From Allobosea sp. (GTDB taxonomy: Bacteria; Pseudomonadota; Alphaproteobacteria; Rhizobiales; Beijerinckiaceae), in assembly GCF_017308015.1 (NCBI RefSeq), contig NZ_JAFKFW010000002.1:496001-560000 (forward strand): a stretch of 64,000 bases of DNA. The letters are read 5' to 3'. Positions 39,337 through 48,171 of the stretch are shown here, piece after piece; position 1 is the first letter of the stretch, and each line of letters begins with the position of its first letter. Below the pieces are notes generated by a model, which saw nothing but the letters and a program-made list of their open reading frames with translations, had not been told where the DNA came from and made no database searches. A program made the position numbers and the translations under genes.

Positions 39337-39515
39337 CCCGCCGCCGTTATCCTGTGTCTCGTGCGGCCGGCGCACGCCGCCGCGCTGAGCCGAAAGGCTT
39401 TGTTGCCAAAAGATTATGAATTTCGATAGGATCGACACCTTGGCGGGAACCGCTATTGGCCACGGCCACCAATAGAGATATCGCGGCAAGCGATACACGG
39501 GACAGGGGACGGCTT

Positions 39516-40499
39516 ATGGATGTGCGGCAACTGCGATGTTTCATCGCGGTGGCAGAAGAGCTGCATTTCGGCCGCGCTGCCGAGCGGCTCGGCGTAGCGC
39601 CCCCCGCGCTATCGCGCCAGATCAGCGCTCTCGAGGACGAACTCGGCGTCGCCCTTCTGACCCGCACCACCCGGCAGGTCGCGATGACGCGTGCCGGGTT
39701 GATCATGCTGGAGGAAGCCAAGGGCATTCTCGTCAAGATGGAGCACGCGTCGCGCTCGGTGCGCGAGGCCTCGCTGGCGTCCGGCAAGGTCCTGCGCGTC
39801 GGCGCAATCGATGCGGCCTCGTCGAGCTTCGTGCCGGAGGCGCTGATGGCGTTCCGCGCCGGTTTTCCGGGCATCGAGATCAAGTTCGTCGAGGCGATGA
39901 CGGCAGCGCTCGTGCAGATGCTCGAAGCCGGCAAGCTCGACCTCGCGCTGACCCGCCCGCCACGCAAGCCGACAGACTGCGCCTTCGAAATTCTGCGTGT
40001 CGAGCGCCCCATCGTGGTGCTGAACGAGAATCATCCGCTCGCCGCGCGCGAGCATCTGACCATGCTCGACCTCGTGGGCGAGCCCTTCGTCGTGCCGTCC
40101 AAGCGTATCCGCCCCTATGCCTACGATCTGGTCATGGCCTATTTCGAGAGCGTCGGAGCGGTGCCGAACGTCACCATCGAGGCCACCGAAAAACCGGCGA
40201 TGATGTCAGCGGTCGCCGCCGGGCTCGGGATGGCGCTGGCTCCGGACTGGGTCTCGCGGCTGTCCTTTCCCGGCGTGACCATGCGGCGCCTGCGCGGCGC
40301 CATGCTGGATCCGCCGCCGCCGGGCGCGCTTGTCGGCGTATCCTGGCGCCCGCAGCAGAAGCTGTCGTCCCGCGACGATTTTCTCGCGATTCTCAGGGAA
40401 AGCGTGACCCTGCTCGACGACCGCCACGTCCTGCCCTTCGTTGCACCGAAACCGCAGAAACGAACCGCCCGCACCGAGTCGCCAGTCGGAGGAGCTTGA
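39516..40499 (+). CDS. LysR family transcriptional regulator
   Basis: 327 aa. N-terminal winged HTH (MDVRQLRCFIAVAEELHFGR, LGVAPPALSRQISALEDELG) and a periplasmic-binding-protein-like effector domain. AGGGGA 6 nt before the ATG sets the start. Its TGA overlaps the ATG of tctB, so it is co-translated with the transporter it probably regulates; LysR proteins next to tct genes usually respond to the transported carboxylate. Confidence 0.93.
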   Translation: MDVRQLRCFIAVAEELHFGRAAERLGVAPPALSRQISALEDELGVALLTRTTRQVAMTRAGLIMLEEAKGILVKMEHASRSVREASLASGKVLRVGAIDAASSSFVPEALMAFRAGFPGIEIKFVEAMTAALVQMLEAGKLDLALTRPPRKPTDCAFEILRVERPIVVLNENHPLAAREHLTMLDLVGEPFVVPSKRIRPYAYDLVMAYFESVGAVPNVTIEATEKPAMMSAVAAGLGMALAPDWVSRLSFPGVTMRRLRGAMLDPPPPGALVGVSWRPQQKLSSRDDFLAILRESVTLLDDRHVLPFVAPKPQKRTARTESPVGGA

Positions 40500-41017
40500 T
40501 GAGTTTGAACCAGATAGAGCGGGCGCAGGGCCTGCGCGTAAGGTCAACGCAGGATCTGGCCGGCGGCCTGTTCATGATCCTGCTCGCGCTCGGCGCCTTC
40601 GTCTTCTCCTGGGAACTGCCGGCCGGCACGCTGCGTCAGCTCGGGCCCGGCATGCTGCCCAAGGCCTTCGCGGTGATCTGCGGCGCGCTCGGCCTCATGC
40701 TCGCGCTGGCCTCGCTACGCTACAATGGCGAAAAGCTCGAGGGCTGGTCGTGGAAGGGCATCTTCTTCGCACTCGGCGGCGCCTGCCTGTTCGGGCTGAC
40801 CATCCGCGGCTTCGAATTCGGTCCGATCCAGGTACCGGCGCTCGGCCTTCTGGTCTCAGGCCCATTGCTGATCTTCTTCTCCGGGCTTGCCGCCGATGAC
40901 CGCAAGCTCAAGGAGCTGCTGATTTTCGCCGTGGCCATGTCGCTCGGTTGCATCCTGCTGTTCAAATATGCGCTGAGCCTGCCGATCCCGCTCGCGCCCT
41001 GGCTGCTGGGTATCTGA
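40499..41017 (+). CDS. tctB: tripartite tricarboxylate transporter, small membrane subunit TctB
   Basis: 172 aa, four TM helices. Start overlaps the lysR stop (TGATG), with GGAGG upstream. TctB pairs with TctA in a secondary transporter that works with the binding protein TctC. Confidence 0.9.
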   Translation: MSLNQIERAQGLRVRSTQDLAGGLFMILLALGAFVFSWELPAGTLRQLGPGMLPKAFAVICGALGLMLALASLRYNGEKLEGWSWKGIFFALGGACLFGLTIRGFEFGPIQVPALGLLVSGPLLIFFSGLAADDRKLKELLIFAVAMSLGCILLFKYALSLPIPLAPWLLGI

Positions 41018-41020
41018 GCG

Positions 41021-42523
41021 ATGATGGAGACCCTTTCCCACCTCTCGCTCGGCTTCGGCGTCGCGCTCACCTTCAAGAACATCGCGCTCTGCTTCGCCGG
41101 CTGCCTCGTCGGCACGCTGATCGGCGTGCTCCCCGGCGTCGGGCCAATCGCGACGATCTCGATCCTGCTGCCGATCACCTTCGGCCTCGACCCGACCGGC
41201 GCGCTGATCATGCTCGCCGGCATCTATTACGGCGCGCAGTACGGCGGCTCGACCACGGCGATCCTGGTCAACATTCCCGGCGAGGCGACCTCGGTCGTCA
41301 CCACGCTGGACGGCCACCAGATGGCCAAGCAGGGCCGTGCCGGCGTCGCGCTCGGCACCGCCGCGATCGGCTCCTTCTTCGCCGGCTGCGTCGCGACCGT
41401 GATCATCGCCGCGCTCGGCGCGCCGCTGACCAAGATGGCACTGCTCTTCGGTCCGGCCGAGTATTTCTCGCTGATGGTAATGGGCCTGTGCTTTGCCGTG
41501 GTGCTGGCGCGCGGCTCGATCCTGAAGGCCTTCTGCATGATCATGCTGGGCCTGCTGTTCTCGACCGTCGGCACCGACCTCGAGACTGGCCAGGAGCGCC
41601 TGACCTTCGGCGTCGCCTCCCTCTCCGACGGCATCGACTTCTCGGTGCTGGCGATGGGCGTGTTCGGCTTCGCCGAGGTGCTTCGCAATCTCGAAAGCCC
41701 GGAGGCGCGCGACGTCGTCAAGGGCAAGATCGGCCGGCTCCTGCCCGGCTGGGAGGATCTCAAGCAATCCGCGGCACCGGTGCTGCGCGGAACCTTCATC
41801 GGCGGCATCCTCGGCATCCTGCCGGGCAATGGTGCGGTGCTCGGCCCCTTCGCCAGCTATACCGTCGAAAAGAAGATCGCCAAGGACCCTTCGCGGTTCG
41901 GCAAGGGCGCGATCGAAGGCGTGGCCGGGCCGGAATCGGCCAATAATGCCGGCGCACAGACCGCGTTCATCCCGCTGCTCACGCTCGGCATCCCGCCGAA
42001 TGCGGTGATGGCGCTGATGGTCGGCGCGATGACGATCCACGGCATCATCCCCGGCCCGCAGGTGATGACCCGCAACCCCGAACTGTTCTGGGGCATGGTG
42101 GCCTCGATGTGGATCGGCAACCTGATGCTGCTGGTCATCAACCTGCCGCTGGTCGGCATGTGGGTGAAGCTGCTGCAGGTGCCCTACCGGCTGATGTTCC
42201 CGGCGATCCTGATCTTCTGCTGCATCGGCATCTACTCGGTGAACAACCAGCCGCTCGACGTCGCCTTCACGGCGCTGTTCGGCCTGTTCGGCTACCTGCT
42301 GATCAAGCTCGGCTTCGAGCCGGCGCCCATGCTGCTCGGCTTCGTGCTGGGCAAGCTGATGGAGGAAAAGCTGCGGCAGGCGCTGATCATCTCGCGTGGC
42401 TCGTTCTGGACCTTCGTCGAGCGGCCAATCTCGGCTGGCCTGCTCGTCGTCGCAGTCCTGGTGCTCGTCATCGCGCTTCTGCCCTCGATCTCGAAGAAAC
42501 GCGACGAGGTCTTCACCGAATGA
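41021..42523 (+). CDS. tctA: tripartite tricarboxylate transporter, large membrane subunit TctA
   Basis: 500 aa, about 12 TM helices. Family motifs: GVLPGVGPIATISILLPITF and YYGAQYGGSTTAILVNIPGE, and GPESANNAGAQTAFIPLLTL in the second half. Lies 3 bp after tctB. Two adjacent ATG codons, 41021 and 41024, can serve as start. Confidence 0.95.
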   Translation: MMETLSHLSLGFGVALTFKNIALCFAGCLVGTLIGVLPGVGPIATISILLPITFGLDPTGALIMLAGIYYGAQYGGSTTAILVNIPGEATSVVTTLDGHQMAKQGRAGVALGTAAIGSFFAGCVATVIIAALGAPLTKMALLFGPAEYFSLMVMGLCFAVVLARGSILKAFCMIMLGLLFSTVGTDLETGQERLTFGVASLSDGIDFSVLAMGVFGFAEVLRNLESPEARDVVKGKIGRLLPGWEDLKQSAAPVLRGTFIGGILGILPGNGAVLGPFASYTVEKKIAKDPSRFGKGAIEGVAGPESANNAGAQTAFIPLLTLGIPPNAVMALMVGAMTIHGIIPGPQVMTRNPELFWGMVASMWIGNLMLLVINLPLVGMWVKLLQVPYRLMFPAILIFCCIGIYSVNNQPLDVAFTALFGLFGYLLIKLGFEPAPMLLGFVLGKLMEEKLRQALIISRGSFWTFVERPISAGLLVVAVLVLVIALLPSISKKRDEVFTE

Positions 42524-42587
42524 CGGGGTTGCCGCCCCGGCGGCGCCCCTCCAGTCTCACCTTCAATCGTCTCTGGGAGGAATACGC

Positions 42588-43562
42588 ATGAAGAAGCTTG
42601 TTCTCGGCCTTGCCGCAGCCGCCACGCTGGCTCTCGCCGGCGGTGCGCAGGCACAGGGCTATCCGACAAAGCCGATCACGATGATCGTGCCGTTCGCGGC
42701 CGGCGGCCCGACGGACATCATCGCCCGCATCGTCGCCGACAACATGTCCAAGACGCTTGGCCAGCAGATCGTCATCGAAAACGTCGCCGGCGCTGGCGGA
42801 ACGACCGGCATCACCCGCGCGGTTACCGCAGCGCCCGATGGCTACACCATCGCGATGGGGCATCTGGGCACTTTCTCGGCCGCACCTGCCACCTATCCCG
42901 GCCTGAAATACGACCCGATCAACGGCATGCAGACCATCGGCCTGGCCGGCGGCACCCCGATCCTGATCGTGGCCCGCAAGAACCTCGAGGCGCCTGACCT
43001 CAAGGGCTTTGTCGCCGCCATGAAGGCCAACCCGGACAAATTCAACGAGGCCCATGCCGGCCTCGGCTCGGTTTCCTGGACCACCTGCACCCTGCTGAAG
43101 GGCATTCTCGGCACGCCGAAGATCAATGCCGTCGCCTATCGCGGTACCGGCCCCGCACTGAACGATCTCGTCTCGGGCCAGGTCGACTTCATGTGCGACC
43201 AGATCGTCTCGGTCGCCGAGCAGGTCCGCGCCAACACGATCAAGGCTTATGCCATCGCCTCGGCCCAACGCTCGCCCGCGCTGCCCGACGTGCCCACCAC
43301 CAAGGAGGCCGGCCTGCCCGACTACCAGATCGAGGCCTGGAACGGCATCGCAGGTCCGAAGGGCATGCCGAAGGAGGCCGTGGACAAGCTGGTCGACGCG
43401 CTGAACAAGGCGCTCAACGACGAAGGCACCAAGAAGCGCCTGCTCGATCTCGGCACCGTGCTGCCGACCGCCGAGGAGCGCACGCCTGCCGGCTTCGCCG
43501 CTCTGATCAAGCGCGATGCCGACAAGCTGACGCCGGCACTCTCGGCCGCACCGAAGCAGTAA
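42588..43562 (+). CDS. tctC: tripartite tricarboxylate transporter substrate-binding protein TctC (Bug family)
   Basis: 324 aa. Signal peptide of about 23 residues ending AQA, then YPTKPITMIVPFAAGGPTD, the Bug-family ligand loop. GGGAGGA before the ATG. The periplasmic receptor of the system. The family binds many carboxylates (citrate, tartrate, phthalates, nicotinate), so the ligand is not predicted. A terminator follows. Confidence 0.95.
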   Translation: MKKLVLGLAAAATLALAGGAQAQGYPTKPITMIVPFAAGGPTDIIARIVADNMSKTLGQQIVIENVAGAGGTTGITRAVTAAPDGYTIAMGHLGTFSAAPATYPGLKYDPINGMQTIGLAGGTPILIVARKNLEAPDLKGFVAAMKANPDKFNEAHAGLGSVSWTTCTLLKGILGTPKINAVAYRGTGPALNDLVSGQVDFMCDQIVSVAEQVRANTIKAYAIASAQRSPALPDVPTTKEAGLPDYQIEAWNGIAGPKGMPKEAVDKLVDALNKALNDEGTKKRLLDLGTVLPTAEERTPAGFAALIKRDADKLTPALSAAPKQ

Positions 43563-44349: not shown

Positions 44350-44991
44350 TCAGCGTGTGCCGAACATGCGGTCCCCGGCATCTCCAAGGCCAGGCACGAT
44401 ATAACCGTGATCGTTCAATCGCTCGTCGATCGCAGCCGTCCAGATGCGGACATCGGGATGGGCCCCGCGCAAGCGGGCGACGCCTTCCGGCGAAGCCAGC
44501 AGGCAGACGAAGCGCAGATCCCTGGCGCCACGCTCCTTCAGGCGCTCGACCGCCGCCACGGCTGAGTTCGCGGTCGCCAGCATCGGGTCCATCACCACGA
44601 TCATGCGGTCGGCGATGTCGGACGGTGCCTTGAAATAATACTCGACGGCCTGCAGTGTGTCGGGATCGCGATAAAGTCCGATATGGGCGACGCGTGCAGC
44701 CGGGACTAGCTCCAGCATGCCGTCGAGGAAGCCGACGCCGGCCCGCAGGATCGGAGCGAAGACCAGTTTCTTGCCGGAGATGACCGGCTGCATCGATTTC
44801 TGCAACGGCGTCTCGATCTCGATCATCTCGGTCGGCAGGTCGCGCGTCACCTCGTAGCAGAGCAGCATGCCGATCTCGTTCAGGAGCTGGCGGAAGCTCT
44901 TGGTCGAGCGGTCCTTCTCGCGCATCAGCGTGAGCTTGTGCTGGACCAGCGGGTGGTCGACGACGGTGACGCCGTCCTGGCTCGAAGTCAT
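44350..44991 (-). CDS. upp: uracil phosphoribosyltransferase (URC6-type context)
   Basis: 213 aa. Makes UMP from uracil and PRPP. PRPP loop in [20 protein letters not shown]; the C-terminal uracil site is in [17 protein letters not shown]. Last gene of a three-gene run with a DUF1688/URC4 gene (39 bp upstream) and a URC1-type gene. In yeast, a UPRT-like enzyme (Urc6) works with Urc1 and Urc4 in uracil degradation, so here Upp may serve catabolism as well as salvage. Confidence 0.95.
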
Positions 44992-45030
44992 ACGCCGGGT
45001 ATCCCTCTATCTCTCGGACTTGGCTTACCC

Positions 45031-46248
45031 TCAAAATACCGTGCCATCGCTGACGATGGTCAAGGGCGGACCGCCATCCACACGCTTTTCGCGCGCGATC
45101 CGGCGCCCGGCCGCCCAGGTCCCGCCTTCCAGCACCTTGGCGAGCGGGAGTTCATCGCGCGAGCGGCCAAGCCGCTGGCGGATCAGCGCCGCGACTTCGT
45201 CGAGCAGAGCCACGGTCAGCGCCCGCCACTCCACGACGAGCGGCGATGAGACCTCATGCGCCTTCGTCCGGTCCGCCTCGTCCTTCAGCGCGATGACGCC
45301 GCTGTCGAGGAAGAGCCCGCCATTGCGGTATTCCGGCAGGCCGGTCATCTCGTCGATATCGACCACGGCGATACCGGCCCATTCCAGCGGCTCGATCAGC
45401 GAATAGGTCAGCCATTGCGAGAGCTTGTGGAAGGGTACGAGCCCCTCTGTCGGCTTACCCGGCGCGATCAGGGGATGGCGCCAGGTGTCGCCGAGGGCCA
45501 CGCCGGCCAGCGTCAATCGCGAGGGCCATATTCCGCCAAAGGTGCCGAGCACCTCGGCGAGCATGTGGGGAGCCCGCAGCGAGCCGGTATCGGCAGACGC
45601 GGCGAAGCGGTCGAACAGCGCGCCGGGACGAGAAAGCCCCTGCCGCTCCAGCTCTTCTCCAAGGCGGTTGAGCAGAGCAGCGCGGCCTTCGAGCGCCAGG
45701 AGAGGATTGTCCGGCCCGGCCTGGAAGCCGCGCGCCAGCGCGGCCGCGTCGAGCCGCTTCAAACCGGTCGCATCAGCCTGCAAAGGTCGAGCGGGGTCGC
45801 TGGAGAACAGGCCGTCGGCGAACATGTCGAGCGAGGCGAGCGCAAGCCCCTCCGAGCGCCCGATCTCGCGACCGGTCGCGGCATCGCGATAGCGCCAGTC
45901 CCGCCCGGCGCCGGCATCGAGCAGGACGCTGACGACCGCGAGATCATAGGCAGCGCGCCCCCGCGCCGCGGGGTTGGCGAAGCCGGCAGACTGATCGAGC
46001 TTGTGCCAGCGATCCTCGCCATCGACAGCGAAATGACGCCAACGCGCGTGGAAGGGGATATCGAACGCCGGATAGTTCGCGCGGATCGTCTCCAGCACGT
46101 AGTCGGCGCAGGCTTCGAGCCGCTCCGGGTGAACGCTGAAATGGAGCAGCTTGCCCGCGAGCCCGAGCTCCAGCATCTCCTGCGCGCGCTCGCGCACGGC
46201 CGTGGGTTTCAACAGGGTGCGGAAGGCCTCGGGATCGCGGTCGGACAT
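45031..46248 (-). CDS. DUF1688 protein, URC4/Urg3 homologue
   Basis: 405 aa. The DUF1688 family includes yeast Urc4 and fungal Urg3, required for uracil catabolism by the URC route; the chemistry of the protein is not established. Typical regions: LLHFSVHPERLEACADYVLE, FHARWRHFAVDG, EWAGIAVVDIDEMTGLPEYR and LPEYRNGGLFLDSGVI. It lies between the URC1-type gene and upp, all in one direction with short gaps (25 and 39 bp). Start is one of two adjacent ATGs (46251/46248). Confidence 0.88.
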   Translation of the reverse strand: MSDRDPEAFRTLLKPTAVRERAQEMLELGLAGKLLHFSVHPERLEACADYVLETIRANYPAFDIPFHARWRHFAVDGEDRWHKLDQSAGFANPAARGRAAYDLAVVSVLLDAGAGRDWRYRDAATGREIGRSEGLALASLDMFADGLFSSDPARPLQADATGLKRLDAAALARGFQAGPDNPLLALEGRAALLNRLGEELERQGLSRPGALFDRFAASADTGSLRAPHMLAEVLGTFGGIWPSRLTLAGVALGDTWRHPLIAPGKPTEGLVPFHKLSQWLTYSLIEPLEWAGIAVVDIDEMTGLPEYRNGGLFLDSGVIALKDEADRTKAHEVSSPLVVEWRALTVALLDEVAALIRQRLGRSRDELPLAKVLEGGTWAAGRRIAREKRVDGGPPLTIVSDGTVF

Positions 46249-46273
46249 CATCTACTCGGTGAGCGTGGCGGAA

Positions 46274-47536
46274 TCAGAATTTGTCGAGGTCGCGGCCGAC
46301 GGTGGTTTTCAGGGCGTTGTCACCGGGCGCGCCGTCCGGCGCATAGTAGCCGGCCGCCTTCTTGGCCTCGATCTCGACGGAAGCATCGGGCGGGATCAAT
46401 TCGGGCGGGATCGCGACGCGCTCGCCGATGGCGATGCCGCTTTCGACCATGGCGTCGTATTTCATGTTCGACATCGACATCAGCCGGTCGATATGGGTGA
46501 CGCCGAGCCAGTGCAGCACATCCGGCATGAGCTGCTGGAAGCGGGCATCCTGCACGCCGGCGACGCATTCGGTGCGCTCGAAATAGGTCGCGGCGGAATC
46601 GCCGCCCTCCTGACGCTTGCGGGCGTTGTAGACGAGGAACTTGGTGACCTCGCCGAGCGCCCTGCCCTCCTTGCGATTGTAGACGATCAGGCCGACCCCG
46701 CCGCTCTGGGCCTCCTTCACGCATTCCTCGATGCCATGCGTGAGATAGGGCCGGCAGGTGCAGATGTCGGAGCCGAACACGTCCGAGCCGTTGCATTCGT
46801 CATGGACGCGGCAGGCGATGCGCGTCTTCGGGTCGGCGAGCCGCGAGGCGTCGCCCATGACGTAAGCCGTGATCGAGCCGATCGGCGGCAGGAAGACCTT
46901 GAGGTCCGGCCGCGTGACGAGCTCGGGATACATGCCGCCGGTCTGCTCGAACAGCGTGCGACGCAGGTCGCTCTCGGTGGTGCCGAAGCGTTCGGCGATA
47001 CCCGGCAGATACCAGACCGGATCGACCGCGATCTTGGTGACGCTGATATCGCCGGACGCGTGCAGGATGTGGCCGTCCGCGGCGAGGCGATGCGCGCCCA
47101 TCGCGGCGAGGATCTCGGGCAGGTTGAGCCTGGCCTTGGTGATCGCGATCGAGGGGCGGATGTCGATGCCCTCGCCGATCAGCTTGCCGAAATCCTGCGC
47201 GACGGTGTGGCCGAAGGGATCGAGCGAGACGATTCTTTTCGGGTCTGCCCATTGCGGCTGCGGCAGGATTTCCGCCGTCGGATGGGTGTTTGTCAGGTCC
47301 GGGCGCTGCTGCGGATTCATCGTGCGGGCGGAGATCGCGAGCGCCCGATAGACCGAATAGGAGCCGCCATGGGCGCCGATGACGTTGCGGTCCGCCGGGT
47401 TGGTGGTCGAGGCGATGATCGGGCCGCGCTCGGCGGCGGTCGGTGCGCCCCATCGGATCGGGAAACGCGCGGCGGCGCTGCCCGGCTCGGGATGGGAGGT
47501 CAGCCTGATATGGCCGTTGCGGTTCGGCGCATTCAT
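46274..47536 (-). CDS. GTP cyclohydrolase II-like protein, URC1 type
   Basis: 420 aa. The C-terminal half has the GCH-II zinc site: C in CRVHDECNGSD and C-T-C in GSDICTCRPYL, spaced as in RibA (C-x10-C-x-C), plus the catalytic segment YNRKEGRALGEVTK. The N-terminal about 200 residues are an extension absent from RibA but present in yeast Urc1. Urc1 acts on a uracil-derived nucleotide in uracil degradation rather than on GTP. ATG at 47536 chosen (AGGA 10 nt upstream) over a GTG at 47545. First gene of the putative URC operon. Confidence 0.88.
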   Translation of the reverse strand: MNAPNRNGHIRLTSHPEPGSAAARFPIRWGAPTAAERGPIIASTTNPADRNVIGAHGGSYSVYRALAISARTMNPQQRPDLTNTHPTAEILPQPQWADPKRIVSLDPFGHTVAQDFGKLIGEGIDIRPSIAITKARLNLPEILAAMGAHRLAADGHILHASGDISVTKIAVDPVWYLPGIAERFGTTESDLRRTLFEQTGGMYPELVTRPDLKVFLPPIGSITAYVMGDASRLADPKTRIACRVHDECNGSDVFGSDICTCRPYLTHGIEECVKEAQSGGVGLIVYNRKEGRALGEVTKFLVYNARKRQEGGDSAATYFERTECVAGVQDARFQQLMPDVLHWLGVTHIDRLMSMSNMKYDAMVESGIAIGERVAIPPELIPPDASVEIEAKKAAGYYAPDGAPGDNALKTTVGRDLDKF

Positions 47537-47560
47537 CGCGGTCACGTCCTGAAAACGGAA

Positions 47561-47593
47561 GAAGGCCCCGGGACGGGATCGTCCGGGGCCTTC
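47561..47593 (-). terminator. hairpin after the small membrane protein gene
   Basis: 11-bp perfect stem GAAGGCCCCGG/CCGGGGCCTTC with an 11-nt loop; the minus-strand 3' side continues TTCC. It separates the 53-aa gene from the URC run. Confidence 0.6.
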
Positions 47594-47639
47594 TGGACCT
47601 CACGAAGTCTGAACCAGCGCGGCGGCGCCGTCAATCGCC

Positions 47640-47981: not shown

Positions 47982-48171
47982 TACCCCTCTCCTGCATCGA
48001 AGTCAGCTGTTGCCGACTTCGATGCAGGAGAGGGGTAGGGGTGAGGTGTAGGCCGCTGGACCAGTCTGGCGCGGAACCAACCGCAGCCGCGGTGAGGGCA
48101 CAGCAAGGGCGACCAACGGCCTACCCCTCACCCTGCCCTCTCCCTCCGGGAGAGGGTTTCCAGCGCTGTCC
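47982..48171. repeat. long hairpin intergenic repeat, copy B
   Basis: Same outer blocks as copy A at 24307-24463: GTGTAGGCC on the left, GGCCTACCCCTCACCCTGCC and CTCTCCCTCCGGGAGAGGG on the right, then a shared GCGCTGTCC. The left hairpin is extended to a perfect 22-bp stem (47983-48004 with 48015-48036) by an extra 12-bp arm ending TCGAAGTC/GACTTCGA. The right end overlaps the last 17 codons and stop of glyS. Confidence 0.85.

Follow-up and report, generated by a model that had tools for sequence, protein, structure and literature searches.

Among the closest described counterparts of the locus considered here is the URC pathway of uracil catabolism in the yeast Lachancea kluyveri, in which URC4 degrades ribosylurea to urea according to an excerpt of PMC7530994; the conservation of URC1 and URC4 in fungi and bacteria has already been stated in print as well (excerpt of PMC3869809). 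Two further proteins serve for comparison: the enzyme of PDB entries 7ej3 and 7eev, apparently the one published as UTP cyclohydrolase (Zhang et al. 2021), and the queuosine-5'-monophosphate glycosidase Qng1 (DUF2419), which cleaves the base from queuosine or queuosine monophosphate, as far as the excerpted literature describes it. We have analyzed a stretch of 64,000 nucleotides of Allobosea sp. DNA (the window; contig NZ_JAFKFW010000002.1), in which three open reading frames of the minus strand (positions 44350-47536), arranged head to tail, encode a URC1-type protein, a URC4 protein of the DUF1688 family and a uracil phosphoribosyltransferase (Upp).

The bacterial URC operon of the window

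An initial annotation had recognized these three genes on one strand and proposed a bacterial URC operon; the reading frames and family models confirm the former statement, and the gene families together with the recurring gene order support the latter. All three protein families are present together at this single locus:

46274..47545 (GTG start), minus strand: URC1-type protein (UTP-cyclohydrolase-like; database name 'GTP cyclohydrolase II', PRK07198), model NF005536
45031..46251, minus strand: URC4 (DUF1688, PF07958), the proposed N-ribosylurea(-phosphate) N-glycosidase with a predicted Qng1 fold
44350..44991, minus strand: upp, uracil phosphoribosyltransferase (uracil and 5-phosphoribosyl-1-pyrophosphate to uridine monophosphate), models NF001097 and TIGR01091

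URC1 contains the Pfam domains GTP_CH_N (PF12471, 267.8 bits) and GTP_cyclohydro2 (PF00925, 58.2 bits; cut-off 23.3), both above cut-off, and reaches 748.5 bits against the NCBIfam model NF005536 (cut-off 403). URC4 scores 481.4 bits against DUF1688, above cut-off, and has no match among the NCBIfam models, while Upp exceeds the cut-offs of UPRTase (PF14681, 250.7 bits), NF001097 (295.1 bits; cut-off 114) and TIGR01091 (271.7 bits). The gap of 39 bp between URC4 and upp agrees with the annotated value; that between URC1 and URC4 is 22 bp, and the 25 bp given earlier hold only when the second Met of URC4 is taken as its start. For URC1, the ATG at 47536 (residue 4 of the GTG-started reading frame), which is preceded by AGGA, appears to be the likelier true start. 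Among the best 80 of at least 573 matches, those nearest to the URC4 of the window belong to a Hyphomicrobiales metagenome-assembled genome (MAG; 89%) and to Bosea (up to 84%), so that the source genome looks Bosea-like.

We consider it probable that the bacterial URC operon breaks uracil down via the nucleotide, and that URC4 is a Qng1-like N-glycosidase that releases urea. Upp would convert uracil to uridine monophosphate (UMP), which host kinases would presumably take to uridine triphosphate (UTP); URC1 would open the pyrimidine ring and shed a three-carbon piece, with the urea staying on the ribose; and URC4 would hydrolyze the ribose-urea N-glycosidic bond to yield urea and ribose (phosphate), making use of acid and Lys positions like those of Qng1. 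To hydrolyze a ribose-urea bond is to act as an N-glycosidase, as Qng1 does. We propose N-ribosylurea, probably as a phosphate, as the substrate of URC4, and urea and ribose (phosphate) as its products; a substrate carrying a 5'-phosphate or triphosphate is suggested because Upp and a UTP-type URC1 point to a nucleotide route. Yeast urc4 mutants reportedly accumulate ribosylurea. A more elaborate version of this scheme is conceivable, although we regard it as rather doubtful: URC4 might constitute a second branch of Qng1-fold glycosidases with a non-heterocyclic leaving group, take the phosphorylated, possibly triphosphorylated, URC1 product and expel urea, hold the phosphates through the motif H68-x-R70-W-R72-H73, and belong to an operon that is switched by an attenuator in its leader.

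Predicted structure of URC4 and its similarity to Qng1

A sequence search of the PDB with URC4 returned no credible relative, the one match (PSMD5) lying at E 1.2. Two structural models of URC4 were predicted, model 1 from 32 aligned sequences (predicted local distance difference test [pLDDT] 91.2; predicted template modelling score [pTM] 0.89), and model 2, led by a Phenylobacterium URC4, from 22 sequences (pLDDT 89.8; pTM 0.88). When model 1 was compared with the PDB by Foldseek, the matches at E<=0.001 were Qng1/DUF2419 structures in 11 of 11 cases (E 5.8e-9 to 1.1e-7), with template modelling (TM) scores of 0.59-0.63 (query) and 0.72-0.78 (target); the match after these lay at E 0.35. Model 2 gave the same result: Qng1/DUF2419 structures again made up all of the hits at E<=0.001 (11 of 11; lowest E 2.9e-10), and the twelfth match was an 8-oxoguanine DNA glycosylase (E 0.22, probability 0.63). 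Put to this test, the models predict a Qng1 fold for URC4. What we claim for URC4 and Qng1 (PF10343) is a common predicted fold and a likely common chemistry, not membership in one family, and the hydrolysis of queuosine-5'-monophosphate by URC4 is not expected.

The correspondence extends to individual residues. A small Qng1 profile, consisting of two Qng1 sequences from the PDB and two plasmid relatives, was aligned with 36 URC4 sequences by hhalign (score 36.0, E 4.8e-4, probability 32%); the best of 100 column shuffles scored 23.7 and the reversed profile 18.0. The alignment pairs FYK199RAQ of Qng1 with FHK276LSQ of URC4, TAFAD231YK with TGLPE307YR, and VEIRAATI with VEWRALTV. Thus, the Lys at the Qng1 K199 position is found in URC4 as K276; at the position of Qng1 D231, URC4 has no Asp but a Glu (E307), likewise an acid. 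In 85 URC4 sequences (84 compared loci and the window), K276, E307, Y308, R309 and W379 are invariant (85/85), and E375 is present in 84, being replaced by Gln in the Azospirillum locus L062. The relevant codons in the window are:

45424..45426, minus strand: codon of URC4 K276, counterpart of Qng1 K199 (hhalign; 85/85)
45331..45333, minus strand: codon of URC4 E307, counterpart of Qng1 D231 (hhalign; 85/85)
45115..45129, minus strand: URC4 E375-GGT-W379, proposed counterpart of Qng1 D298-x3-W302 (low-confidence W379-W302 pairing)

The Qng1 mutant structures 7u5a and 7ulc carry, by their titles, changes at K199 and D231, and as the structure of a D231 mutant contains the substrate, we infer that D231 is catalytic. 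An excerpt of PMC11592518 names D298 and W302 as active-site residues of the Sphaerobacter protein; their likeness to E375-x3-W379 was seen by eye, and only the pair W379-W302 is aligned, in a low-confidence hhalign run forced to full length.

It should be noted that a number of observations weigh against a Qng1-like URC4. The identity between URC4 and Qng1 amounts to merely 14-19%, at a root-mean-square deviation of 4.5-5.7 Å, and in Pfam, searched up to E 10, URC4 matches PF07958 only, and not PF10343. The two models are not independent of each other, as all 22 sequences of model 2 are among the 32 of model 1. The hhalign probability ranges from 10 to 32% (26% and 10% with other alignments) and drops to 2.6% in global mode, and the confident span of the alignment ends before the D298/W302 motif. 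Furthermore, both D231 and D298 of Qng1 are Glu in URC4, E375 being in turn a Gln in Azospirillum.

The initial annotation had left the chemistry of URC4 open; the fold and residue match to Qng1 now narrow it to a concrete glycosidase hypothesis. Among the open-access papers listed, none was found that joins URC4, DUF1688 or ribosylurea with Qng1 or DUF2419, subscription journals being mostly outside this search. A search for PF10343 in 398 genomes of the phylum gave 0 matches and is uninformative, as it had no positive control. Separately, divergent Qng1 relatives were met on plasmids of Azospira (L146, 2929-3843) and Variovorax (L147, 2821-3774), both of which match only PF10343 in Pfam; the one from Azospira lies near helicase and DNA methyltransferase genes, and perhaps has a DNA-related role rather than one in tRNA salvage.

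Conservation and genomic distribution of the operon

The 84 loci compared for gene order comprise four from plasmids and the best 80 of at least 573 matches confirmed in a genome scan, a choice that favors close relatives. URC1 adjoins URC4 on its upstream side in 80 of the 84, upp adjoins it on the downstream side in equally many (80/84), and both flank it in 77; this order is kept across Alphaproteobacteria, Cupriavidus and Gordonia. Because the gene order recurs in such distant bacteria, the arrangement of the three genes is not due to chance. Two Kaistia loci (L087, L133) have URC1-URC4 pairs with no upp match within the fetched stretch.

Within a sample of 199 genomes of the family, URC1 and URC4 occur in the identical 60 genomes, which represent 19 of 43 genera. 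The two genes are adjacent in 47 of these, on different contigs in 11 (some of these assemblies are fragmented), and far apart on one contig in two, at distances of 25 kb and, in a single-contig genome, 2.6 Mb. Their link therefore goes beyond neighborhood, since the co-occurrence is perfect even though 13 of the 60 pairs are unlinked or on different contigs.

The genes next to the operon in relatives speak for pyrimidine breakdown. A cytosine deaminase and an ABC transporter lie downstream of it in Azospirillum relatives; phosphopentomutase, thymidine phosphorylase and purine-nucleoside phosphorylase are found nearby in Microvirga and some other genera (one representative of each was named by a model); and a TetR-type gene resembling rutR, which reaches the cut-off of neither RutR model, is located near the operon in Pseudoroseomonas.

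Urea and nitrogen physiology

The absence of Rut and reductive genes, noted initially for the surroundings of the operon, holds genome-wide for RutA, which has no match, and for PreA, which has none above cut-off (PydB and PydC were not searched for). Hence, URC is the sole uracil ring-opening route found in this genome by searching for RutA and PreA, in keeping with the earlier suggestion that it may be the organism's route for using uracil. The part of that suggestion that concerns nitrogen is weakened, and the release of urea by URC4 with it, by the lack of any match above cut-off to urease alpha or gamma, urea carboxylase or allophanate hydrolase (the last searched in the window's own genome only) in the whole genome. 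The benefit of urea release is thus doubtful in this organism. Urease is present in all nine of the other same-genus genomes of the sample, yet none was found above cut-off in the window's genome, an assembly of 56 contigs that is estimated to be 100% complete; either the species has lost the use of urea, so that uracil feeds carbon metabolism or is detoxified, or the assembly misses the urease genes.

Across the family sample, urease is weakly associated with URC4 (47/60 genomes with URC4 vs. 89/139 without; Fisher p 0.048, with genomes that are not independent), and for urease or urea carboxylase the figures are 48/60 and 97/139 (p 0.17). Urease was counted at strong E-values only, which left out 12 of 148 matching genomes (E 8.5e-4 to 1.5e-5), and urea carboxylase at E<=1e-250 (18 of 199 genomes, 17 of them above cut-off). 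Twelve of the 60 URC4 genomes have neither enzyme; with the Pfam cut-off, by which 144 genomes are urease-positive, G122 and G183 count as positive and the 12 become 10. As the searches detected neither urease nor urea carboxylase in some URC genomes, the presence of URC genes alone does not imply growth on uracil nitrogen.

URC1 and alternative readings of the operon

The database name 'GTP cyclohydrolase II' and a retained zinc-type Cys triad (C251, C262, C264; invariant in four of four aligned URC1-type sequences) could be taken to mean that the operon serves riboflavin synthesis or salvage, with URC1 as a GTP cyclohydrolase II and Upp in pyrimidine salvage. We regard this as very improbable, and reject a RibA identity for URC1. 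Six RibA and RibBA models score URC1 with only 34-60 bits, far under their cut-offs (TIGR00505, 48.3 bits vs. 205.85; NF001591, 59.5 bits vs. 148), whereas the URC1 subfamily model gives 748 bits, and the fixed partner of URC1 is DUF1688. URC1 matches NF005536 and PDB entries 7ej3/7eev at full length, shares 264 of 415 aligned residues with 7ej3 (64%, 592 bits, residues 7-421 of 423), and is by these matches placed in the UTP cyclohydrolase subfamily. A search for ribA elsewhere, proposed as a check in the initial annotation, turned up three further GTP cyclohydrolase II domains in the genome, one within a RibBA protein and two in proteins with a Cys-containing motif that we take to be the RibA signature, so that riboflavin could be made without URC1.

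Two other readings concern URC4 itself, and both appear improbable to us. URC4 might be a ureidohydrolase or amidase that attacks the urea group of ribosylurea itself and yields ammonia and carbon dioxide. Urease would then be dispensable, in line with the lack of matches above cut-off to urease, urea carboxylase and allophanate hydrolase in the window's genome and with the 12 (or 10) URC4 genomes devoid of the first two, among them the single-contig genome G142. Against this stand the fold, which at E<=0.001 matches a nucleotide N-glycosidase only, the 48 of 60 URC4 genomes that do possess urease or urea carboxylase, and the yeast pathway, which is described in the excerpted literature as passing through urea. 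Alternatively, the N-glycosidase activity of URC4 could be directed at intact uridine nucleotides, or at another base, rather than at ribosylurea, with URC1 and URC4 acting in parallel or in reverse order; Qng1 indeed acts on an intact nucleotide (7u91 and excerpted literature). Such an activity would merely reverse that of Upp, a linear pathway suits the finding that URC1 and URC4 always occur together in the sample, and URC4 has been published as acting on ribosylurea (in the same excerpted literature on yeast). We favor a urea-releasing N-glycosidase acting on the product of URC1.

The URC1 leader and the neighborhood of the operon

Two candidate regulatory elements precede URC1 in the window:

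47560..47594, minus strand: GC-rich hairpin in the URC1 leader with a 12-bp stem and a pyrimidine-rich tail, attenuator-like candidate
47606..47634, minus strand: promoter-like TTGACG - 17 nt - CAGACT preceding the hairpin, candidate by the conservation of TTGACG

TTGACG is fully conserved in an alignment of the window and 11 Bosea-group loci. Hairpins of the kind seen in the window lie no more than 90 nt from the start of URC1 in 29 of 79 leaders vs. 19 of 632 control gene starts, counted by a rule that was written after hairpins had been seen, over related loci that are not independent and control starts that are unverified, being those of reading frames chosen by codon composition. Shuffled sequences contain such hairpins in 4% of cases on average and 9% at most, and they are found at 0 of 84 URC4 starts and two of 80 upp starts. 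The positive leaders belong to the Bosea group (10/12, including the window; the label also covers L066, a MAG of the Hyphomicrobiales), Microvirga (10/10), Methylobacterium (3/3), Chelatococcus (2/2) and four singles; in Bradyrhizobium none of 32 passes the strict rule, and most of its loci have a shorter stem at a similar position. Across genera the stems vary in sequence at roughly one position, and within Bosea two pairs, judged by eye, change on both sides. The hairpin of the window could also terminate a small upstream reading frame that was read by eye; it is kept in two Bosea loci (L069, L078) with a divergent upstream gene, as judged by codon composition. A terminator scan of the window (two sites vs. 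2.3 expected) did not list the hairpin, a sigma-70 promoter scan (one site elsewhere vs. 0.7 expected) did not list the TTGACG element, and an Rfam scan gave nothing at gathering score. The hairpin remains a candidate for an attenuator-like element.

No RutR-type operator with up to two mismatches is present in the window. RutR-like palindromes were observed in the Cupriavidus locus L063 (6628-6641, TGACCANNTGGTCA exact) and in L065, upstream of URC1; each deviates by two mismatches from what we take to be the 16-base RutR consensus. The Pseudoroseomonas palindrome lies beside a divergent RutR-like gene, and control of URC operons by RutR appears possible. The window also contains a 20-bp inverted repeat with an 8-base loop (47986-48033), upstream of the small reading frame that precedes URC1.

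A LysR-TctB-TctA-TctC block at 39513-43562 was considered as the transporter of the operon and rejected: its place beside the URC genes is kept in the Bosea group only (12 of 13 loci, L066-L078; the sequence of L078 ends 1.2 kb past URC4), and not in other genera. The TctA/TctC matches in L065 are weak; they and the TctC match of L123 show 32-34% identity.

Comparison with known systems

URC1 is a nearly full-length match to UTP cyclohydrolase (PDB 7ej3, 7eev), and no sequence difference that would be expected to change function was seen. The same three activities make up the L. kluyveri pathway (URC1, URC4, URC6) and the bacterial operon; the bacterial genes, unlike those of the yeast, are combined in one operon with upp, and the genome studied here differs further in having no urea-splitting enzyme above cut-off. 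With Qng1 (PDB 7u07, 7u91, 7ulc, 7ugk), URC4 has in common a predicted fold and the T-x4-Y and VExRAxT segments. URC4 differs from it in belonging to a separate Pfam family, DUF1688 rather than Q_salvage (PF10343), and in an invariant H68-x-RWRH73 motif without a counterpart in the low-confidence part of the alignment. The match to Qng1 links DUF1688, known from fungi and bacteria, to DUF2419, and reduces the question of URC4 chemistry to a single assay (ribosylurea to urea) and two substitutions (K276, E307). The operon of the window is an unexceptional example of an operon type already known, and what is new is this testable proposal for the chemistry of URC4.

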